This document shows positions 38,360 to 49,770 of a DNA stretch of 64,000 nucleotides, piece after piece. Position 1 is the stretch's first letter. Each line of letters starts with the position of its first letter. The stretch is from NCBI RefSeq assembly GCF_017094525.1, contig NZ_CP064788.1, forward strand, positions 2,155,030 through 2,219,029, in the 5' to 3' direction. The notes under the pieces were generated by a model that had not been told where the DNA came from, searched no databases, and was given only the letters and a program-made list of their open reading frames with translations. A program made the translations under genes and the position numbers. The stretch comes from Halapricum desulfuricans (GTDB lineage Archaea > Halobacteriota > Halobacteria > Halobacteriales > Haloarculaceae).

Positions 38360-39856
38360 CTAGCAACCCGTTCGATCGATTGCCTGCGTCAGATCGATTT
38401 CCCCGGCGAGTTCGGCCGCGCGGTCGAACGGTGACACCGACCGTCCGTCGCCGCCCGGCCGTTCTCGACCGGCGTGCTCGAAAACTGCGTCGACAAACGC
38501 CTCCCTGACGGACGCGGTGTGAAACAGGCCGTGGAGATACGTGCCGAGCACCCGGTCGGTCGCGACGCTGTTCGGGCCGATCGGTGCCGGAAGCGATCGC
38601 GCGACGCGCGTCTCGCCGGCGTGGATCTCGTAGCCACGCGCGGTCCCGCTCGCACCGTCGATCGGCCCGGCCCCCGCGACTGTCCGGGAGACCTGCCGGA
38701 TGGTCTTCTCGTCGTCGAACCGCGTCACCACGGGAACCAGCCCGAACCCGTCGAGACTGTCGCGCTCGCCGGTGCTTTCGCGGCTCGCGCCGAGCAGTGT
38801 CCGGCCGAGCAGTTGGTATCCGCCGCAGATGCCGACGATCGGGCCGTCGAACGCCCGCAGGCGCTCGCCGAAGCCGGCCTCCCGGAGCGCGAGCAGGTCG
38901 TCGGCGGTGTTTTTGGTCCCCGGAAGGACGACCGCGTCGGCGTCGGAAAGCGTCGCGTCCGGGGGCCGGATCGCCACTCGAACGCCCGGAACACGGGAAA
39001 GCGGATCGAGGTCGGTCGCGTTCGAGAGCCGCGGCAGTCGCACCGCGGCGATTGTGACCGCCCGCGACTCTGCCACGCCGTCGTTCCCACCGCGCACTGT
39101 CGACGCCGTGTTGTCCGGCAACGAGAGGCTGTCCTCCTCGGGCAGTCCCGGGTCCTCGTGGGGGAGCACGCCCAGCACGGGCACGCCCGTTCGCGCTTCG
39201 AGTTCGTCGAGCCCGTCGGTCAACAGGGACCGATCGCCGCGGAACTTGTTGATGACCAGCCCGGCGACCCGGTCGCGGACGTCCTCGGGCATCAACTCGA
39301 GCGTCCCGTAGAGGCTCGCGAAGACGCCGCCGCGCTCGATGTCGCCCACGAGCAGGATCTCGGCGTCGGCGAAGCGCGCGGTCTCGACGTTCGCCAGGTC
39401 CCGGTGCCGGAGGTTGAGCTCCGCGATCGAACCAGCACCCTCCGCGACGATCAGCTCGTTGTCGGCCGCCAGTCGCTCGTAGGCCGCGACGGCCGCCTCG
39501 CGGGCGCGCCCCCAGTGGCGCTCGTAGTACTCCCCGGCCGGGACGTGCCCGACCGGGCGGCCGTCGATCAGCACCTGACTCTCGGCGTCGCCCCGGGGTT
39601 TGAGCAGGACGGGGTTGTGATCTGTCGTCGGGACGACGCCGGCCGCGCGGGCCTGGACGTACTGGGCGACGCCGATCTCACCGTAAGACGTGTCGCTGCC
39701 GACGGACACTGCAGCGTGGGCGTTGTTGCTCATCGTCTGGGCCTTGAAGGGGACGACATCGATACCGCTCTCCGCGAGCCGACGGCAGAGTCCGGCGACG
39801 ACGGTGCTCTTGCCGACGTGGCTGGCCGTCCCGGCGATCAAAAGCGTCGTCGTCAT
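38360..39856 (-). CDS. cbiP: Cobyric acid synthase (adenosylcobyric acid amidotransferase)
   Basis: A 498-residue glutamine amidotransferase that amidates four side chains of the corrin ring. The N-terminal dethiobiotin-synthase-like ATP domain starts [29 protein letters not shown]-like sequence ([19 protein letters not shown]) and [13 protein letters not shown] follow. The C-terminal GATase domain has the nucleophile Cys in [10 protein letters not shown] and His in YLHGLFH. It is the last gene of the minus-strand cobalamin operon, 21 bp after cobA. tRNA-Leu lies beyond its stop; the 224-bp gap between them shows no gene. Confidence 0.94.
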
Positions 39857-39877
39857 TCCAGGGTCATCGTCTCCCCA

Positions 39878-40594
39878 TCAGTACTCCGTCCCCTTCCGGG
39901 CGCGCTGGCCGTCCGCCTCGAAGGGGTGGCGATCGGCGCTGACGTGGCTCAGCAGATCGACGTACCCTTCCAGGTACGCGGGCCGTTCGTGCCCGCCGGT
40001 CAACACGAGTTCGAGGTCGTCTGGCCGGTCCTTGATCAGCGCCTGCAGGTCCCCGGGATCGACGAGACCACGATTGGCCGCGTACAGCACCTCGTCAAGC
40101 ACGAGCATGTGGACGCCAGCCTCGGGCTCGCCGTCCAGTTCCAGCGGACCGGACAGGTCCGCTTCGCCCGCGGCCTCGACGAGCTGGCGCGTCCGATCGA
40201 AGGCCGCCTCGGCCGTCGCGGCGTGTTCGCCGTCGCTGGAGCCGTCGAGCAGCCCGTGCCAGCCGTAGTGGCCGCTGTTCTCGTAGCTCAGGCCCGGCAT
40301 CTGCGCGATGGCATTGTACTCGCCACGAGTGGCCTCGACGCTGTCGGCCCCGCCTTTCATGAACTGCAGGACGTGGACGCGATAGCCGTGGCCGGCCGCC
40401 CTGAGGGCCATCCCGAGCGCGGCCGTGGTCTTGCCCTTGCCGTCGCCGTACCAGGCCTGCACGAGGCCGAACGCCTCCGGCGCGGCCGGTTCGATCGGCT
40501 CCGCCGTGGGCCTGACGCCGCGGCCCGGCGTCGCCGCGCGCTTTTCTGTCTGTCGTGGCTGTGCTCCCGATCGTCGATCAGTCTCGTCTGTCAT
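39878..40594 (-). CDS. cobA: Corrinoid adenosyltransferase (CobA/CobO type)
   Basis: A 238-residue P-loop enzyme that transfers the adenosyl group of ATP to Co(I) of corrinoids. Walker A is YGDGKGKTTAALG (about residues 49-61), VHVLQFMKGG follows and the Walker B-like LDEVLYA is near residue 165. A disordered 40-residue N-terminal extension rich in Pro, Arg and Glu precedes the fold and is common in haloarchaeal copies. It overlaps cbiZ by 4 bp. Confidence 0.92.
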   Translation of the reverse strand: MTDETDRRSGAQPRQTEKRAATPGRGVRPTAEPIEPAAPEAFGLVQAWYGDGKGKTTAALGMALRAAGHGYRVHVLQFMKGGADSVEATRGEYNAIAQMPGLSYENSGHYGWHGLLDGSSDGEHAATAEAAFDRTRQLVEAAGEADLSGPLELDGEPEAGVHMLVLDEVLYAANRGLVDPGDLQALIKDRPDDLELVLTGGHERPAYLEGYVDLLSHVSADRHPFEADGQRARKGTEY

Positions 40595-41307
40595 AGCTCG
40601 AAAACCTCCGCTGTCGTGGTCGTAGCGATCCCGTGCTCTGCTTCAGCGACGCTCGCCGGCGGCCGCTCGTCGGTATAGCGCGACCGGAGGCTGGCCGTGA
40701 TGGCGTCGCGAACGCAGGCGCGGACGGCGTCACCGACCGGCGTCGCACTGCCGGAGAAGGCGGCCGGCTCGCCTGCTGGATCGCAGGCCGCGACGACCGC
40801 GTCGCTGGTCGTACCGGTGAACCCGACCGAGGACAGCAGCGTCGCCGTCTTCGCCTCGGCCGCGACGGTCAGCAGGTTCGCCAGCGCCCCGGGGTCGAGA
40901 TCGCGAGTCGTCCCGGCGAAGAGATTGCACGTTCCCGGCGGGCGCTCGTGTGTGGCCGCGTCGTCTTCCCGAGTTCCGCCGACAGACTCGCCCTCGGGGT
41001 CGGGCGGCAGCGTCGCCGGGTTCGAGAGGCCGACCGTGGCGATCACGGCGACCGACCCGGTGCGAGCGACCCTGGCATGTTCCTGAGAGACGCCGGTCAA
41101 CAGCACGGGCGCCTCTGGCTCGAAACCGGCCGCCTCCAGTCGGTCCGTCACGTAGCGGTCGAGGTCCGTCCGCTCCCAGCCGCTGGGGACGGTCACGTTG
41201 TACGCCGCATCGCCGCGCGAGTGACCCCCGTCCCAGCCGGTCGAGAGCCAGCGCGTCTCGGGTCGGCCCACCCGCAAGACGCCGTCGCGGACCGTGGTCT
41301 CAAACAT
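40591..41307 (-). CDS. cbiZ: Adenosylcobinamide amidohydrolase
   Basis: A 238-residue enzyme that removes the aminopropanol side chain from salvaged (pseudo)cobinamides so that they can be rebuilt as cobyric acid. Family marks are LSTGWDGGH, YNVTVP, LTGVSQEHA, TNLFAG-type sequence (GTCNLFAGTTRDL) and GFTGTTSDAVV. In Halobacterium a homologue is required for cobinamide salvage. Its place between cobA and cobD supports corrinoid salvage rather than only de novo synthesis. It overlaps cobD by 8 bp. Confidence 0.92.
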   Translation of the reverse strand: MFETTVRDGVLRVGRPETRWLSTGWDGGHSRGDAAYNVTVPSGWERTDLDRYVTDRLEAAGFEPEAPVLLTGVSQEHARVARTGSVAVIATVGLSNPATLPPDPEGESVGGTREDDAATHERPPGTCNLFAGTTRDLDPGALANLLTVAAEAKTATLLSSVGFTGTTSDAVVAACDPAGEPAAFSGSATPVGDAVRACVRDAITASLRSRYTDERPPASVAEAEHGIATTTTAEVFEL

Positions 41308-42310
41308 CCGTTAGCACCTCCAGCAGCCGGTCGTTCGCCTCGGGTTCGCGGACCGCGACCCGGACGTGCGAGTCGAGCCCCCGGAACGTGGTGGCGTCCC
41401 TGATCGCGACGGCTCGCTCGCGAACGGCCGCGACGAACCGACCGACCGGCCGATCACCCACCTCGAGCAGCAGGAACGGCCCCTCCGACTCGTGCACGTC
41501 GAAGCGTGTCGCAAGCGCCTCGCGCATGCGCTCGCGCTCCCGGGCGACCCGCTCCCGCGTCGCCTCGACGAACGCCCCCTGGCGCATGCAGTGGCTCCCG
41601 ACGGCGAGCGCCGGCGCGCCGAGGTTCCACGGTCGCCGGGCGTTTCGCATCGCCTCGCCGAACGGGCCGGTCGCGACGGCAAACCCGGCCCGGATCCCCG
41701 GCAGCCCGAACAGTTTCGTCAGCGACCGGGCGACGACGACGCCCTCGGTGCCGGCCATCGACGGGCGGTCGGTGTAGCCGAGGAAGGCCTCGTCGATCAG
41801 TAGCGTGGTGTCGCTCTCGCGACAGCGGCGGGCGAACGTGCGGAGGTCGTCCTGCGCGATCGCCTCGCCCGTTGGGTTGTTCGGGTTGCAGACGACCGCG
41901 AGCGCGTGGTCGGCCGGGTCGGCCTCGACAATCGCCTCCGGTGAGACGAACGACGGCGTTCCGCCCTGCAGCCGTATCTCGCGAGCGTATTCCCCGAAAC
42001 TCGGTGCCGGGACGAGCGCGCTGTCGCCCGGATCGACCGCGAGTGCGATCGCCAGCCGGATCGCGGCCAGCCCGCCCGGCGTCGGCACGACCGACTCGGG
42101 CGTGACATCGACGTACTCGGCCGCAGTCTCGCGGTACTCGTTCGGTGGCTCGGGCGGGTACGACCCCGCCCGATCCAGTGCGTCCTCGTAGACGTCGGCG
42201 ACGCCGGGTGGTGTCCGCGGGTTGGTGTTCGCGCTGAAATCCAGCAGTTCGGGGTCGTCGCTGGACCCGTGGGCGACCGGTCCGACGCCGCGTGCTCGTT
42301 CGTCGTTCAT
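41300..42310 (-). CDS. cobD: Threonine-phosphate decarboxylase CobD (PLP, aminotransferase fold)
   Basis: A 336-residue fold-type I PLP enzyme. By context it decarboxylates L-threonine-O-phosphate to aminopropanol phosphate, the linker of the nucleotide loop. It shows DFSANTNPRTPP near the N-terminus, CNPNNPTGE, LLIDEAFLGY and the PLP lysine in ARSLTKLFGLPGIRAG. Motifs alone would also allow histidinol-phosphate aminotransferase; the operon position between cbiZ and cobT-like favours CobD. The correct start is ATG at 42310, overlapping the cobT-like stop by 4 bp; the frame remains open far upstream but only as a shadow. Confidence 0.88.
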   Translation of the reverse strand: MNDERARGVGPVAHGSSDDPELLDFSANTNPRTPPGVADVYEDALDRAGSYPPEPPNEYRETAAEYVDVTPESVVPTPGGLAAIRLAIALAVDPGDSALVPAPSFGEYAREIRLQGGTPSFVSPEAIVEADPADHALAVVCNPNNPTGEAIAQDDLRTFARRCRESDTTLLIDEAFLGYTDRPSMAGTEGVVVARSLTKLFGLPGIRAGFAVATGPFGEAMRNARRPWNLGAPALAVGSHCMRQGAFVEATRERVARERERMREALATRFDVHESEGPFLLLEVGDRPVGRFVAAVRERAVAIRDATTFRGLDSHVRVAVREPEANDRLLEVLTDV

Positions 42311-43305
42311 GCGTGTGTCGTTGCTCCATTCAGCCTCTCGTACAGCGTCGTGATCCGATCGCGAACGCTCGACATCGAGACGTTCTCTCGGGTCGCCGCC
42401 GCGAGCGCGCCGCCCATCCCGGCCCCTTCCTTGGCTTCGCCCGCGAGATAGCGCTCGAAGACGGGGCCGGACGCTTCCTCGAACCCGGGGTCGGTCACGA
42501 CGAGGTCGACCCCCAGCCGCTCGGCCGCCTCGCGGACGTCGGCGGACGGGTCGTCGACGACGAAGGGCGTCGTCGCGACCGAGATCGGGCGGTCGATACC
42601 GTCTGCCCGGAGCAGGCCGGCGACGGCGAGTTGCTGGGTGCCGCCGGCCAGCAGCAGGGCAGTCCCGCTCTCCAGCGCGCCGGCCGCGACGCCGGCGAGG
42701 ACGGCCAGCACGGGGTCGCCGACCGCCGCGAGCGCCTCGCGGGGCCGGCCCTCGAGCTCGCCCGGCGAGTAGCCGCTCGTCGCGAGCGCTGCAGTCACGA
42801 CCCGCCGCTTGCGATCGACCGGGTTCTCCGGCAGCGACGAGGAGACCGACAGGTCGATCCCCAGCGCGTCGCCGACCGCGAGCGCCGTCGTCGTGCCGCC
42901 GGGGACGCTCTCGGCGAGGGTGAGTTGCTCGACCGGAAGCCGTCGGCCGTAGCGCCGTCCGCGCTCCCACAGCGAGGCCGCCTCGGGGACCGCCGTGGGT
43001 TTGCGGATGTCCCTGCCCGGTTCGCTCCCGAGAGCGACCGTCGGCGCGGCCGTCTCAACGCCGAGGCCGGCGTCGATCGCGACGAGGTCGAACCCGGTCA
43101 GTTCGCGGACGGCACGGGTAATCAGCGCCGGCGTCGGGCACCCGCTCGGGCTGACCGGGACGGCCGGCGCTTCCAGCACGTCGCCGTAGGCGAGCAGTTC
43201 CGCGTCGGCGGCGGGCGTGTGCCACATCGCCTCCGGATCGGCCCCGGCGGCGCTGAGTCCCTCGATCGTCGCCGTCTCGGTCGTTCCGACGACCAGTCCC
43301 ATCAT
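42307..43305 (-). CDS. cobT: CobT-like nicotinate-nucleotide:dimethylbenzimidazole phosphoribosyltransferase family protein
   Basis: A 332-residue archaeal protein of the CobT-related UPF0284 family. It shows GLGVETAAPT, ESVPGGTTTALAVG (phosphate-binding), AVGDPVLAVLAG, LLLAGGTQQLA and GAGMGGALAAA. It is expected to activate the lower-ligand base with nicotinate mononucleotide, although archaeal members are less studied. The start choice is secured by a perfect Shine-Dalgarno GGAGGT (43312-43317 on the coding strand) six bases before the ATG at 43305. A second ATG directly follows. cobY ends 46 bp upstream. Confidence 0.83.
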   Translation of the reverse strand: MMGLVVGTTETATIEGLSAAGADPEAMWHTPAADAELLAYGDVLEAPAVPVSPSGCPTPALITRAVRELTGFDLVAIDAGLGVETAAPTVALGSEPGRDIRKPTAVPEAASLWERGRRYGRRLPVEQLTLAESVPGGTTTALAVGDALGIDLSVSSSLPENPVDRKRRVVTAALATSGYSPGELEGRPREALAAVGDPVLAVLAGVAAGALESGTALLLAGGTQQLAVAGLLRADGIDRPISVATTPFVVDDPSADVREAAERLGVDLVVTDPGFEEASGPVFERYLAGEAKEGAGMGGALAAATRENVSMSSVRDRITTLYERLNGATTHA

Positions 43306-43311
43306 CGCGAT

Positions 43312-43317
43312 ACCTCC
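43312..43317 (-). promoter_or_regulatory. Strong Shine-Dalgarno site of the cobT-like gene
   Basis: The coding strand reads GGAGGT followed by a 6-base spacer and two consecutive ATG codons. It stands in the only gap of appreciable size (46 bp) inside the cobalamin operon, so this gene can be translated independently of the coupled neighbours. Confidence 0.65.
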
Positions 43318-43351
43318 GCGTTCTGTCTCCACGTGTCGTTCGATCGTACGT

Positions 43352-43897
43352 TCACAGTCGTTCCTCCGCGATTCTCGCGTCGGCGGGTCGATTGACGTTG
43401 ACCGCCAGCCGTTCGTCCTCCAGAACGAGCCGCCGTTCGGGCCCCTCGCCGACGACGTTGAGTCCCGTCGGCGCGAGGTCCCCGTCCGCGGTCTCGACGG
43501 TCGTGTCGACGCTGACGCCGAGGTCCCGCTTCAGGCCCGCCGGGACGGACACCGACAGCGACCCGCGCTCGTGGGCGTCGAGTACGGCCGAGACGACCGA
43601 GTCGATCAAAAGCGGCAGGTCGGCGGCGACCGTCAGTACCGGCTGCTCGACGGCCGACAGCGCCGTCTCCAGATCGGCGACGTAGCCCTCACCGGCGGTT
43701 TCGATCGTCGGGACGTCCACGTAAGCGGCCGTCTCGGGCGCGTGCGGCGAGACGACGGCGTGGGTCGTCTCCGCCGGTTCGGCGAGCGCCTCGAGGACGC
43801 GATCGATCATCGGTCGGCCGCCGATCTCGTAGAGCGGCTTCTCGACGGGCGCGTCGAGGCGGGTCCCGCGACCGCCGCACATCACCAGTGCGTCCAC
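43352..43897 (-). CDS. cobY: GTP:adenosylcobinamide-phosphate guanylyltransferase
   Basis: A 181-residue nucleotidyltransferase, the archaeal, non-orthologous replacement for bacterial CobU. It activates adenosylcobinamide phosphate with GTP. The N-terminus VDALVMCGGRGTRL and EKPLYEIGGRPMIDRVL is typical, and VAADLPLL is the metal-binding strand. It begins with GTG at 43897, seven bases after a GGGGGTGA ribosome-binding site, and overlaps cobS by 16 bp. ATP-type pyrophosphorylases of similar fold are excluded by context. Confidence 0.92.
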   Translation of the reverse strand: MDALVMCGGRGTRLDAPVEKPLYEIGGRPMIDRVLEALAEPAETTHAVVSPHAPETAAYVDVPTIETAGEGYVADLETALSAVEQPVLTVAADLPLLIDSVVSAVLDAHERGSLSVSVPAGLKRDLGVSVDTTVETADGDLAPTGLNVVGEGPERRLVLEDERLAVNVNRPADARIAEERL

Positions 43898-44640
43898 GCG
43901 ATCACCCCCGAATGGAGCGCGACGAGGCGCGCGAGTTCGTTCGTCGCGCCGAAGACGTCGCCGCTGACGCCTTCGACCGTCGAGCGGGCGAGCCACAGGA
44001 CCGCCCCGCCCGTCACGAGCGCGCCAACCGTCGCGACCGGGGCCGCGGGCGTCACTACGGCGAGCGCGACGGTCGGGACGACCGCTCCGGCCACCGGGAG
44101 CAGCGACGCCGACCCGGCGTGTTCGGTGAGAGCGGAGCCGAGTCCCTCGTGGGTCGCCTCGCCCAGGCAGACCAGGACTGCGACCGCTCCCTTCGCGCCG
44201 ACCTCGCTCGCGACGACGATCGACGCGACCGCGGCCCGGTCGCTCCCGCGGCCCGCCTCGGCCAGTCCGAACGCCGCGAGCGCCAGTCCGACCGTCACGA
44301 CCGACAGCGCCAGCGCGCCGCCGACGCCGATCGTCGTGTCCCGCATGACCTCGCGCCGTCTGACGGCGTCGCCGTGGACCGCCAGCGCGTCGCCCAGGTC
44401 CGTCAGGCCGTCGGCGTGGGCGACCCCGGTGAGCAGATACACCCACCCCAGGAACGCGGCCGCGGCCGTCGCGGGCGGCGCGAGCGCGACGAGCGGTATC
44501 GCCGCGAGCGCCCCGATCACGTACCCGGCGATCGGGAACGACGCAGGCCCCCGACGGAAGGCGTCCCAGGCGTCGTCGTCCTGCCCGACGGGCAGTCGCG
44601 TGAGGAAGCCGACCGCCCCGCGAACGGCGTCTACGGCCAC
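43882..44640 (-). CDS. cobS: Adenosylcobinamide-GDP ribazoletransferase (cobalamin synthase)
   Basis: A 252-residue integral membrane enzyme that joins adenosylcobinamide-GDP to alpha-ribazole (phosphate). Signatures are AVGFLTRLPVG at the N-terminus, the conserved HADGLTDLGDAL acidic site, DTTIGVGGALAL and seven or so helices. The start is GTG at 44640, just after GGGGTGAT and overlapping the cbiB stop by 10 bp. The frame continues upstream inside cbiB but is only a shadow there. It acts in the membrane together with CbiB. Confidence 0.93.
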   Translation of the reverse strand: MAVDAVRGAVGFLTRLPVGQDDDAWDAFRRGPASFPIAGYVIGALAAIPLVALAPPATAAAAFLGWVYLLTGVAHADGLTDLGDALAVHGDAVRRREVMRDTTIGVGGALALSVVTVGLALAAFGLAEAGRGSDRAAVASIVVASEVGAKGAVAVLVCLGEATHEGLGSALTEHAGSASLLPVAGAVVPTVALAVVTPAAPVATVGALVTGGAVLWLARSTVEGVSGDVFGATNELARLVALHSGVIAWTHW

Positions 44641-45557
44641 GCCATCACCCCGCCAGCGAGCATCGACAGGACGCCCGCGCCGGCGACGGTCCGGACCGCG
44701 CGCGCTCCGGTCTCGCGGTCCGGAACCGGCGCGCCCGGATTGAGGTCGTAGACGCCGGGCTTGGTCAGCCGGACCCCGAGCGCGACCGCGAGCGTCGCCA
44801 TCGGCCACCCCGAGTTCGGCGACGGCGGCTCGCGGGCCCACGACCGCGCGTCCGGGACTGCGCCGGGCCGGCGTGCGGCGATCGCGATCGCCACGGCGGC
44901 CACGCGGGCGGGGACAGCCATCACGAGGTCATCCAGGCGCGCGCTCGCCCAGCCGACCGGCTTCGACCGGTAGCCGAGCATCGAATCCAGCGTGTTGACG
45001 CCCTTGACCCACGCGGCCGCCGCGGCCCCGAACGCGAGCGCGGGCGTCGCTCCGAACGCCGTCGCGAACCGTGTGGCGACGACGAAGGCCAGCAGCGGCG
45101 CGAGCAGCCCGTCGGCGAGGTTCTCGGCGGCGCTCTCGACCGCGCCGCTCCGGAGTTCCCCCGGTGAGAGCGTCTCGGGATCGCGACCGACGAGCGCCGG
45201 GATCCGCTCGCGTGCCCGGTCGGGATCGGCGTCCGCGACCTCGACGACCTCGCGCGCGGTCTCGACCAGCGCGCGGAGACTCGTCGTCGAGAAGAGGACG
45301 AGCCCGGCCGCGAGCGCACCCGCGAGCCAGCCGGCACGGAGCGCACCCGCGACGACCAGCCAGGCCAGCGACCCCGCGAGTACGGGGATCACGGCGGCTG
45401 CGAGCGCCCCGACGAGCCGGGGACGGGACCACGCTCGATCGACTGGGCCGACGAGCCGGCCGAGATACGCGACCGGGTGGAGTCGGTTCGGCGGTTCGCC
45501 GACGAGGACGTCGAGTCCGCCCGCGAGCGCGATCGCCAGCACGGCGGCTTCGCTCAC
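44631..45557 (-). CDS. cbiB: Adenosylcobinamide-phosphate synthase
   Basis: A 308-residue membrane enzyme that attaches aminopropanol phosphate (or aminopropanol) to cobyric acid. Characteristic are LDVLVGEPPNRLHPVAYLG, the acidic AENLADGLLAPLLAF segment, VNTLDSMLGYR and PNSGWPMATLAVALGVRLTKPG. It starts with GTG at 45557, whose GTGA overlaps the stop of the HAD gene, with GGAGG nine bases upstream. Four or five helices are visible. Confidence 0.93.
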   Translation of the reverse strand: MSEAAVLAIALAGGLDVLVGEPPNRLHPVAYLGRLVGPVDRAWSRPRLVGALAAAVIPVLAGSLAWLVVAGALRAGWLAGALAAGLVLFSTTSLRALVETAREVVEVADADPDRARERIPALVGRDPETLSPGELRSGAVESAAENLADGLLAPLLAFVVATRFATAFGATPALAFGAAAAAWVKGVNTLDSMLGYRSKPVGWASARLDDLVMAVPARVAAVAIAIAARRPGAVPDARSWAREPPSPNSGWPMATLAVALGVRLTKPGVYDLNPGAPVPDRETGARAVRTVAGAGVLSMLAGGVMAWP

Positions 45558-46177
45558 TGCTGGTCCCTCCAGCGAGCGGCCAGTTCCGGAAGCGACCGCT
45601 CCGAGAGGAGGGTCGCCTCGGGCGCGGCCCCGTCGGTTTCGGGATCGTCGCCGACGTGCAGCAGATCGGTCGGAGTCGTGTCGAGCGCGTCGGCGACGGC
45701 CTCGAACGCCCGGCGGTCGGGCTTGCGCCAGCCGCAGTCGACGCTCGTGACGACAGCGTCGAAGTGCTCGTCGTCCAGTGTGGATCGTTCCAGCGACCGT
45801 TCGACCAGTCCGGGGACGCTGCAGTTCGAGCAGACGCCGACCGGGCCGACGCTCGCGGCCGCATCGACGGCCGCGACAGCACCATCGCGTGTCCGGACCG
45901 GCGACTCGAACGCCGCCAGCACGGCCGCCCGGACGGTCGGCGTCGCCGGGTCGCGTCCGCGACTCCGGAGCGCGGCGACGACGTGTGCGACCAGCGAGCC
46001 CTCCCGACCGGGCTCGACCTGCCGGTGCGGCTCCGCGTAGACGCGCGCCCAATCGTCCGGAATGTCGACCCCTCGCCGATCGAGCGCGTCGGAGACGGCA
46101 GCGGCCGGATCGTCGGGCCGTTCGACCGACAGCAACGTTCCGAAGCAGTCGAACGAGATTGGCTGGGAGGCGTGCAC
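45554..46177 (-). CDS. HAD-superfamily hydrolase within the cobalamin operon
   Basis: A 207-residue HAD phosphatase. Motif I is FDCFGTLLS (nucleophile and general acid Asp, here D-C-F, with the second Asp replaced by Phe as in dehalogenase-type members), motif II is GVCSNCS, motif III includes WRKPDRR and motif IV HVGDDPETD. The operon lacks any other candidate for the alpha-ribazole-5'-phosphate (or adenosylcobalamin-5'-phosphate) phosphatase, so that role is plausible by context, though phosphatase activity with a DxF motif is uncertain. It starts at GTG 46177, five bases after btuF. Confidence 0.78.
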   Translation of the reverse strand: MHASQPISFDCFGTLLSVERPDDPAAAVSDALDRRGVDIPDDWARVYAEPHRQVEPGREGSLVAHVVAALRSRGRDPATPTVRAAVLAAFESPVRTRDGAVAAVDAAASVGPVGVCSNCSVPGLVERSLERSTLDDEHFDAVVTSVDCGWRKPDRRAFEAVADALDTTPTDLLHVGDDPETDGAAPEATLLSERSLPELAARWRDQQ

Positions 46178-46182
46178 GTGTC

Positions 46183-47355
46183 TCAGCGACGCCGCGCGAG
46201 CAGTCCCGAGGCGACCAGCGCGAGCAGTGCCGCGACGGGGCCGAAGCCGGGTCCGAACCCGCTTCCGGAGTCGGTTGTCGGCGCTTCCGTTGTGGGTGCG
46301 TCGGTCGCCCCGCCGTCGGATTCAGTCGTGACAGCGTCTCGTTCGGTCTCCGTGACCGTCTGTGTCTCGCTCGCACCGTCCGGGTTGAACGCCGCCGAGA
46401 GCTCCTGCAACGGCTCGGTCACCCGCGGCCCGGGCTGGCTGATGAAGTTCGCGTTCACCCTGACGATCTGGTCGTTCCGGACGGCAGTCGTGGCGTTGAT
46501 CGCGGGGCTCTTGGGGAGTTCCCGTCCCTCCGGCACGACGATCCAGTCAGGATTCTCTGCGGCGATCACCTCCTCGCTGATCTCACCGTACGTCCGGATG
46601 TCTGCCGCGGCCGCGACGTTGTCGCCGCCCGCCGTCGCGATCACGTCGCCGATGAACGTGTCCGGGCCGGCCGTCCAGCCGCCGCCCATCGCGTAGTAGA
46701 CGGTCGGGTTCTCGCCGTCGGTCGCGCTCGCACGCACTTCCTCGACTGTCGCGTTCATCGCGTCGGCGACTGTGGCGGCCCCCTCACAGGCGCCGACGAG
46801 CTGTCCAGTCAGGCGGGTCTTTTCGGTCACGTCCGAGATCGAACTCGCTCCTTCGAAGTGGACGACGGTAAACCCGTTATCGCGAAGCGTCTCTATGTCG
46901 TCCTCGTCGATGATGTTCGCCGCGAGCACCACGTCGGGCTCGAGGTCGACGATGTTCTCGACGATCGCGTTCTGATTCGCACCGAGGACGTTCGTCCGAT
47001 TCTGGGAGCCGTTCAGGTACGCCGTCGTGTACCCGGTCGGGAGTCCGACGACCGTCTCTTCGGCGTCGATCGCCCACATCGTCTGGGCGACGCTCGCGCC
47101 GAGCGCGACCACGCGGTCAGGTTCCTCCTCGATCGTGACCGGCTCCCCGGTCGCGTCTGTCACCTCGACCGGGAACGAACAGTTTTCGCTCTGTAGCGCG
47201 GCCGACTGCCCGGGACCGAGTGACGCCGTGTCGTTCTGAAGGCCCTGTCGTTCCGTCGGTGCAACTGTCTGTGCCGGTGCGCTCGCCGCGACCCCGCCGG
47301 TCGAGACGACCACCAGCAGCATTACCGCGACGACTGCAAGTCGTAATCGTGCCAT
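46183..47355 (-). CDS. btuF: Corrinoid ABC transporter substrate-binding protein with PGF-CTERM anchor
   Basis: A 390-residue exported protein. A Sec signal (residues 1-25) is followed by a BtuF/FepB-type periplasmic-binding fold (VTIEEEPDRVVALGASVAQTMWAI, LEPDVVLAANI, WTAGPDTFIGDVIATAGGDN, NPDWIVVPE). A Thr/Glu/Asp-rich linker leads to the C-terminal sorting signal GFGPGFGP, a helix and a final RRR. This matches PGF-CTERM, processed by archaeosortase A, which attaches a lipid. There is no N-terminal lipobox. The ATG at 47355 fits a leaderless message from the palindromic TATA at 47383-47390. It captures corrinoids for BtuCD. Confidence 0.92.
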   Translation of the reverse strand: MARLRLAVVAVMLLVVVSTGGVAASAPAQTVAPTERQGLQNDTASLGPGQSAALQSENCSFPVEVTDATGEPVTIEEEPDRVVALGASVAQTMWAIDAEETVVGLPTGYTTAYLNGSQNRTNVLGANQNAIVENIVDLEPDVVLAANIIDEDDIETLRDNGFTVVHFEGASSISDVTEKTRLTGQLVGACEGAATVADAMNATVEEVRASATDGENPTVYYAMGGGWTAGPDTFIGDVIATAGGDNVAAAADIRTYGEISEEVIAAENPDWIVVPEGRELPKSPAINATTAVRNDQIVRVNANFISQPGPRVTEPLQELSAAFNPDGASETQTVTETERDAVTTESDGGATDAPTTEAPTTDSGSGFGPGFGPVAALLALVASGLLARRR

Positions 47356-47416
47356 CACCTCCCCCGTTGCGGACAGTCCAATAAATATTTACCTAATGCA
47401 AATCGACTTGGGGTAG
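47356..47416. promoter_or_regulatory. Bidirectional promoter with a shared palindromic TATA box (AAATATTT) between btuF and btuC
   Basis: The 61-bp gap has one clear TATA element, the perfect palindrome AAATATTT at 47383-47390. Its centre is about 31 bases from both divergent start codons (47355 and 47417), which fits almost leaderless transcripts in both directions. No second TATA is visible for either gene. Confidence 0.6.
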
Positions 47417-48517
47417 ATGCGAGTCAGACGTCGAACCACGCTCTGGTCGAGCGGGCTGCTCGCGGCGCTGGTCGCGGTCGTACTCACGAGTGCGACGATC
47501 GGGCCGGTCGAGCTGAGCCTGCCGGTCGTCGCGAAGGCGACGCTGAACGCCGTCGGCGTCCCGGCCGGCGTCTCGCTTTCGACCGAGACGGCGTCGCTCG
47601 CCGGCCTGTCGGTACCGTGGCCGGGGATCGACGTCCGGTACGCCTACCCCTTCGCGTTCGGCGTGCCCGAGACGAGCGAACTCATCGTCCGGCAGGTGCG
47701 CCTGCCGCGGATCGTCCTCGGGGCGGTCGTGGGCTTCTCGCTCGGCACCGCCGGAGCGGTCATGCAGGGCTTCTTCCGGAACCCGATGGCCGACCCGTCG
47801 ATCATCGGCGTCTCGACCGGCGCGGCCGTCGGTGCGGTCGCGACCATCGCGCTCCCGGCGCTGCTCCCGTTCGGGCTCCAGACGGCGGCCTTTGTCGGCG
47901 CGGTCGTGACGGCCTTCGTCGTCTATCTGCTCGCGACCGAAGACGGTCGGACGCCGGTCGCGACGCTGTTGCTCGCCGGCGTGGCCGTCCAGACGTTTCT
48001 CGGCGCCGTCGTCTCGTTTCTGCTGCTCCAGAGCGGCGAGAGCCTCGAGGAGGCCGTCTACTGGCTGATGGGCAACCTCCACGGCGTCGGCTGGGACGAG
48101 GTCGCCACGACGCTGCCGGCGACTGTCGTCCTGTTCGGTGCGCTGGTTCCGTTCGCGCGCGACCTCAACGTCCTCATGCTCGGCGAGGCGGACGCGCGGA
48201 CGCTGGGTATCCCCGTCGAGTGGACCAAGCGCCTGCTGCTGGCGCTGTCAAGTCTACTGACGGCCGCCGCGGTCGCCGTCGCCGGCGTCATCGGCTTCGT
48301 CGGGCTGATCGTCCCACACATGATGCGGCTGGTCGTCGGCCCGGACCACCGCGTGCTGTTGCCGACCAGCGCGCTCGCCGGGGCGGTCTTTCTGGTCGTG
48401 ACCGACACGCTCGCCCGCGCGAACCCCCAGGAGCTGCCAGTCGGGATCGTCACCGCCGCGCTCGGCGCGCCGTTCTTCCTGTTCCTGCTTCGTCGCCGGG
48501 AGGTGCACGAGCTGTGA
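47417..48517 (+). CDS. btuC: Corrinoid ABC transporter permease
   Basis: A 366-residue FecCD-family permease with about ten helices. [44 protein letters not shown] carries the family-typical AxxGxxxQ and N-P-LADP region. [27 protein letters not shown] is the L-loop that contacts the ATPase. A periplasmic loop of about 40 residues follows helix 1. It works with BtuF and BtuD, and in Halobacterium the homologous system imports B12. The stop overlaps btuD (GTGA). Confidence 0.94.
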
Positions 48518-49770
48518 GCGATCTGCTCGAAATCTCGGACGTCTCGGTCGCGTTCGGTGACGCTCGCGTGCTCGACTCGGTCTCGCTCTCGGTCGGGCGC
48601 GGGGAGTTCGTCGGCCTCGTCGGCCCGAACGGCGCCGGCAAGACGACGCTGCTGCGGGCGATCAACGGCGTCCGCGCACCCGACGACGGAACCGTCCGCG
48701 TCGACGGTGATCGACTGACCGATCGCTCGACGAAAGCCTGGAGTCGGCGGGTCGCAACCGTCCCCCAGGACACCGGCGTCTCCTTCGCCTTCGACGTCGA
48801 AGCCGTCGTCGAGATGGGGCGCGCTCCACACCGGCGGCGCACCCAGTTCGGCACCTCCGAGCGCGACCGCCGCCGGGTCGAGGACGCCCTGGAACTGACG
48901 AACACCGCCGATCTGCGGGACCGCCCGATCGACGAACTCTCCGGCGGCGAGCGCCAGCGCGTGTTCGTCGCCCGCGCGCTGGCTCAGGACACGCCGCTGC
49001 TGGCGCTGGACGAACCGACCGCGAGCCTCGACGTCAACCATCAGGTCGAGATCCTCCGGCTCGTGAGCGACCTCGTCGGCGACGGCCGGGCGGCCCTGGC
49101 GGCGATCCACGACCTCGAACTCGCCGCGCGCTTCTGTGACCGGCTCGCGCTGCTGTCGAACGGACGGATACGGGCGGTCGGCCCGCCGGAGTCGGTGCTC
49201 CGGTCGGACGCGTTGGATCCCGCTTTCGAGACGACCACGGCGGTCGCGACGAACCCAGTCACCGGAACGCCGGCCGTGACCGCCGGGGCCGACCGGTCCG
49301 GCGACGACGGTCGACGCGTGCACGTCGTCGGCGGCGGGCGCGTCGGCTCGCGGGCGATCGCGAGCCTGCAACGGGCGGGCCACGAACCGAGCGCGGGCGT
49401 CCTCCGGAGCGGCGATCTGGCGCTCGAGACGGCGGCGTCGCTCGACGTTCCAGTGGCAACGACCCCCGCCGCAGGCCCGGTCGATCCCGACGCCGTCGCG
49501 GCCGCACACGAACTGACCGCCGACGCGTCGGTCGTCGTTCTCGCTGACGTCGAGGTCGGCCCCCGCCAGTGGGCGCTCGATCTCGCGGACGGTGCGCCGG
49601 CGGTCGTCCTGCTGGAGGAACGGCCCCTCGCGGACCGACTGCACGGGGGCGAGCGCGCGCGAGAGCGATACGAAACCCTCCGACATCGGGCGACGACCGC
49701 CGACCCGGAGGCGCTCCCCTCGGCGGTCGAGTCGGCTGTCGGAACGATCGAACGGCCGGCCGACGATTGA
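48514..49770 (+). CDS. btuD: Corrinoid ABC transporter ATPase with a C-terminal Rossmann-like extension
   Basis: A 418-residue protein. The ATPase domain (residues 1-255) has Walker [10 protein letters not shown], the signature LSGGERQR, Walker [11 protein letters not shown], and a His in AAIHDLELA. From about 265 a second domain begins [29 protein letters not shown] and runs to the end. It has a Rossmann-like pattern and no function that I can name; homologues of this layout occur in other haloarchaeal BtuD proteins. The GTG at 48514 is the start by overlap with btuC. Confidence 0.92.

Follow-up and report, generated by a model that had tools for sequence, protein, structure and literature searches.

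A probable symmetric TATA box and a probable B12 operator form a conserved element between the divergent btuF and btuC genes of Halobacteriales

Halapricum desulfuricans harbors a 61-bp gap between the divergent B12 genes btuF and btuC, and inside this gap lies TAAATATTTA, an exact 10-bp palindrome by direct reading. Comparison of related sequences supports the view that the palindrome acts as a single symmetric TATA box read in both directions. The palindrome forms the core of a conserved 32-bp element and occupies its left part. The right-hand part, CTA-N3-CAA-N6-TTG, is best interpreted as an operator that defines a B12 regulon. Taken as a whole, the explanation by a two-way box with an attached operator has a probability of roughly two in three.

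The site was studied within a window comprising the whole 64-kb stretch of DNA that was analyzed (features in Table 1). The original prediction held that the octamer AAATATTT at 47383-47390 is exactly symmetrical. Direct reading bears this out, and with the T at 47382 and the A at 47391 the palindrome even extends to TAAATATTTA. The distance of about 31 bp proposed for both start codons also agrees with measurement: from the box center (47386.5) there are 31.5 bp to the btuF ATG (47355, minus strand, with an in-frame GTG at 47358) and 30.5 bp to the btuC ATG (47417, plus strand). AAATATTT occurs once in the window, whereas dinucleotide-shuffled versions contain it 0.02 times on average, and the 61-bp gap contains no A+T-rich box other than TAAATATTTA. 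The published haloarchaeal motifs are TTWT for the TATA box and CGAAA for the BRE (PMC4983044). A scan for TTWT finds it once in the gap, as a minus-strand TTAT that overlaps the proposed btuF core. The plus-strand core, TTTA, does not fit TTWT, so its use for btuC is presumptive. CGAAA occurs on neither strand of the gap, and the flanks are A-rich on both strands. Sigma-70 and terminator scans of 47200-47600, which are not apt for archaea, returned nothing. A cobalamin riboswitch was rejected, as an Rfam search of the window at gathering thresholds gave two tRNAs only. On the minus strand, GGGGGAGGTGATG (47351-47365) is a strong Shine-Dalgarno-like stretch that runs into the start codon of btuF; the sister species L003-L005 do not share it.

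Table 1. Coordinates of the element, its parts and the flanking B12 genes in the window.
Feature	Position	Strand	Basis or remark
32-bp conserved element CAATAAATATTTACCTAATGCAAATCGACTTG	47379..47410	+	Element positions 1-32
Symmetric TATA box TAAATATTTA	47382..47391	none	Element positions 4-13, consensus YAARTAYTTR
Proposed btuF TATA core TTTA	47382..47385	-	Positions 7-4, 28.5 bp from btuF ATG
Proposed btuC TATA core TTTA	47388..47391	+	Positions 10-13, 27.5 bp from btuC ATG
Probable operator CTAATGCAAATCGACTTG (CTA-N3-CAA-N6-TTG)	47393..47410	+	Half-pattern matches
btuF, corrinoid-binding protein	46183..47355	-	Heads the ten minus-strand genes; exceeds the cut-off of TIGR04281 (PGF-CTERM-anchored binding protein)
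Nine salvage/late-synthesis genes	38360..46177	-	NCBIfam matches
btuC, B12 transporter permease	47417..48517	+	NF007081 BtuC above cut-off
btuD, B12 transporter ATPase	48514..49770	+	Scores best with NF007082 (corrinoid ABC transporter ATPase): 438 bits, below cut-off of 537

Both sides of the gap encode B12 functions. The minus-strand genes, ten when counted from btuF through cbiP and putatively transcribed together, continue after btuF with a HAD hydrolase gene, cbiB, cobS, cobY, cobT, cobD, cbiZ, cobO and cbiP. The btuF product scores below the cut-off of the BtuF model itself. CbiB, CobS, CobT and CbiP exceed their curated cut-offs; CobD (286.9, cut-off 290.55), CobY, CbiZ and CobO fall below theirs, so these four names are based on best match and context.

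The element follows the pattern CAAYAARTAYTT-NN-CTA-N3-CAA-N6-TTK. At two mismatches or fewer it is present in 365 of 392 Halobacteriales genomes and in 332 of the 345 of good quality, usually as one copy per genome among the matches listed; the reversed control of this full-pattern search gave at least 3 hits. Second sites outside the matches listed for the full pattern were traced in 26 chosen genomes. Upstream of btuC, CAAYAARTAYTT is found within two mismatches at all 110 loci collected, namely the best 80 of 397 relatives (named genomes) and 30 loci from 59 relatives; these comprise 98 distinct contexts, 91 with an exact match. Across 133 two-sided sites, which have a B12 gene in each direction, positions 2, 3, 5, 23 and 30 are invariant, and positions 1, 6, 11, 12, 16, 17, 22 and 31 vary very little. 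Outside positions 1-32 the information drops away, the flanking columns reaching at most about 0.64 bits. A sequence model built from 65 sites matches 49 of 59 genomes at E ≤ 5, and the window site is its only match in its own genome (E 8.1e-8). An identical btuF-btuC promoter occurs near both ends of one 2.93-Mb contig (L181 and L182; G369:C1 42530 and 2922596), which looks like a duplicated contig end.

The core of the element is symmetric not only in the window but also across the two-sided class, which was reduced from 135 to 131 by dropping the split Salinibaculum copies (L008, L033). The consensus YAARTAYTTR fits 119 of the 131 sites; 65 are exact palindromes over 8 bp and 53 over 10 bp. 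Variation is itself symmetric: in the set of 133 two-sided sites, position 4 is T/C (98/35) and the mirror position 13 is A/G (91/41). Position 6 is A at 128 of the 131 sites and position 11 is T at 129, the exceptions (L153, L160) carrying G11. Spacing in other haloarchaea, whose comparison had been proposed, is fixed at 95 of the 131 sites, where the start codons lie 35-41 bases to the right and 18-26 to the left of position 1. These sites display a near-symmetric TATA box between divergent units, the arrangement of bidirectional archaeal promoters.

Where only one direction is used, the unused half is mostly lost. A protein search for a second btuF (btuF2) gave 30 rows with loci examined, and in the 12 of these genes that do not face btuC, position 11 is invariably G, a change that abolishes the btuC-facing half. 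G11 recurs before HAD-cbiB in another family (L142), before btuF in a third family (L151) and in L193. Of the 18 sites used in the btuF direction only, 17 have a disrupted btuC-facing half, the exception (L278) lacking G11. Two Salinibaculum species have a longer btuF-btuC gap that accommodates a pair of elements spaced 80 bp apart (L033 2881-2993, L051 2880-2991). Their btuF-side copy carries G11.

The reverse situation, btuC without a facing btuF, was found five times in protein searches. In four of these, position 6 is C, C, C and G, changes that destroy the btuF-facing half. The fifth (L016/L053) retains an intact AAATATTT with no btuF match within 3 kb upstream, and is counted as a plus-only site, against the two-way reading. 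At this locus btuF has been lost beside btuC; the sister genome G007 retains it there. In the wider plus-only set, which excludes L063 (contig end), A6 is lost in just 5 of 12. A6 is kept at cobO in L155 and at the btuC-side copy in L033. L219 (no btuF matched, the locus ending about 300 bases upstream) was likewise left out of the counts. Fisher values are 9.6e-16 for position 11 and 1.3e-5 for position 6; they ignore shared ancestry and overstate independence, because one-sided sites are related by descent. Symmetry largely goes with use of both directions, as would hold for a bidirectional promoter. The prediction of one box for both genes gains support from this comparison, through the fit of the consensus, the spacing of the start codons and the loss of the unused half at most one-sided sites.

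A rather unlikely alternative is that two independent promoters overlap, sharing bases without being coupled, and that the palindrome is a by-product of packing them into 61 bp. The two proposed cores are indeed non-overlapping, each 27.5-28.5 bp from its ATG, and either half can disappear alone in one-sided sites. However, TBP on one core would cover the other, so that occupancy would be shared anyway, and the two functions, although separable as in the split Salinibaculum sites, are fused in nearly all lineages. Still less probable is a scheme in which the palindrome serves as a half-site of the regulator's operator and the TATA boxes lie elsewhere. Its attraction is that, in the consensus, CAA-N6-TTT on the left resembles CAA-N6-TTG on the right at a 20-bp offset, but the gap offers no other A+T-rich box, and one-sided B12 sites damage the symmetric core while keeping the right part. 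In the btuF2 sites the CTA, AA and TT of that part are kept in 12 of 12, and most one-sided sites retain it. The inverted repeat CAA-N6-TTG is a separate, B12-gene-linked component beside the symmetric core.

The link to B12 genes extends beyond the main locus. Further copies of the element were retrieved, and tblastn was used to check them against B12 proteins. Some lie between genes (a second btuF and cbiE or cbiA; btuF and cobT), others before cobO, btuC alone, btuF alone, or cbiE or cbiA alone, and one before a HAD-cbiB operon, on the btuF-facing side of the element (L142). Together, 162 distinct contexts comprise 135 two-sided, 13 plus-only and 7 minus-only sites and 7 without a B12 gene. 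A B12 gene therefore flanks 155 of 162, in a set mostly collected through btuC. The seven others are L146, L156, L158 (3 mismatches), L185-L187 (2 mismatches) and L194 (2 mismatches). L185, L186 and L187, from one genus, have the 2-mismatch copy (1501-1532) in a gap; the 3-kb stretch contains no B12 gene of the query set, and the protein encoded by the closest long reading frame is unrelated to B12. In L167 and L168, again from one genus, a second btuC-btuD without btuF upstream has its own element (1501-1532), in which TATTGG replaces TATTTA.

A less biased test than these btuC-collected contexts is a search with the exact half-pattern TTTRNCTANNSCAAN6TTG. It gives 34 matches in 29 of 59 genomes (2 in the reversed control), and all 34 are beside B12 or ribonucleotide reductase genes; 27 of them, assigned by eye from coordinates, are beside btuC. 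The other seven precede cobO (in two genomes from the same genus), cbiX, cobN, nrdA, nrdR-nrdB and btuF2/cbiE. With the sequence model, half-sites also appear upstream of cbiT-cbiL (L277) and of a second nrdA (L280). Thirteen of its weak matches were fetched; B12 or ribonucleotide reductase genes adjoin 8 of them but not the other 5 (L274, L282, L283, L284, L286). In single genomes the right-hand part precedes cobO, cbiT-cbiL, cbiX, cobN and ribonucleotide reductase genes of class I. The two nrdA fragments pass the cut-off for class I NrdA but stay under the one for the B12-dependent NrdJ. The ribonucleotide reductase half-sites lie about 60-135 bp from the starts in differing orientations, which counts against the favored explanation. 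One motif upstream of several B12 gene units is the pattern of a transcription-factor regulon.

The protein that would bind this motif may be a winged-helix member of DUF7839 (PF25211), a weak candidate. The corresponding version of the model keeps the same architecture, has the DUF7839 protein also control its own gene, and is doubtful. The protein is present in 58 of 59 relatives, and its gene adjoins cbiT or cbiL in 9 of 30 loci within the fetched stretch. All nine gaps contain CTA-N3-CAA-N6-TTG (7 exact, 2 with one mismatch), compared with 0.12% exact in mononucleotide shuffles, but an operator between the DUF7839 gene and cbiT may serve cbiT alone. Within 200 bp upstream of the conserved helix-turn-helix start, CAA-N6-TTG occurs in 15 of 30 loci versus 2.7% of shuffles, yet the copy in the genome of the window (L288) has none upstream. 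Outside Halobacteriales, cob/cbi queries matched within about 5 kb of DUF7839 in 0 of 20 genomes, one generic ABC ATPase being matched, and its PDB relatives amount to four weak matches over the helix-turn-helix stretch only. No regulator gene stands out beside the extra sites either: in 20 regions of 18-19 kb, inspected by eye, the recurrent families listed include cob/cbi genes and no helix-turn-helix protein. A literature search with few subscription journals in its scope found no paper naming DUF7839.

In the mechanism proposed, the symmetric box and the flanking BRE positions would allow TBP and TFB to assemble in either orientation, and btuF and btuC transcripts, presumably with short or no leaders, would both arise from this one site. 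In Haloferax volcanii, 72% of protein-coding transcripts have short or no leaders (PMC4983044). The probable operator CTA-N3-CAA-N6-TTG is joined to the box just outside it on the btuC side, where a regulator sensing corrinoid status would bind. Positioned on 47393-47410, the regulator would cover the TATA-to-start stretch of btuC and abut the BRE side of btuF, and one binding event would lower uptake and synthesis together when B12 is plentiful. In bacterial B12 regulons, available B12 leads to repression, and the presence of the motif ahead of class I ribonucleotide reductase genes suggests the same sign of control here. The original prediction also considered that one box might alternate between the two operons. 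Because one probable operator lies against both promoters, joint control is favored; alternating or mutually exclusive output is less likely and not needed.

That a single archaeal TATA box can drive transcription both ways is already known, and Warman et al. reportedly described bidirectional promoters in bacteria and archaea in 2021. At one Pyrococcus furiosus promoter, a near-symmetric BRE-TATA-BRE site gives starts on both strands 49-50 bp apart in vitro (PMC6640164). Like the site described here, it is one nearly symmetric site between two directions; the distance of 61 bp here separates start codons rather than transcription starts. The second P. furiosus transcript is considered a non-functional antisense RNA (PMC6640164), whereas here both sides are protein-coding B12 operons. 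In contrast to P. furiosus, moreover, the symmetry persists throughout an order and is tied to a probable B12 operator.

The gene set has its own parallel. Cobalamin riboswitch regulons of bacteria place btu, cob/cbi and B12-independent ribonucleotide reductase genes under joint control, a similar set. Unlike those regulons, the window has no riboswitch match, and the element, located ahead of the predicted starts, would work at the level of DNA. Divergent operons that share an operator are alike in having one site between two divergent units of one pathway; in such systems two separate promoters flank the operator, whereas here it abuts a single symmetric TATA box. A literature search that covered few subscription journals found no description of a B12 operator, a regulator or B12-gene regulation in haloarchaea. 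Tentatively, a riboswitch-free haloarchaeal B12 regulon can be envisaged, in which one repressor, perhaps DUF7839, acts through CTA-N3-CAA-N6-TTG on the genes for uptake, salvage and de novo synthesis and on those for B12-independent ribonucleotide reductase, and silences both main-locus operons beside one symmetry-selected TATA box. The element provides a ready test locus together with a list of target genes, and its one-sided relatives amount to a natural set of mutants in which promoter symmetry and operator function can be told apart. Such a set would be evidence that selection maintains a two-way archaeal TATA box, which would then be more than a by-product of A+T-rich DNA.
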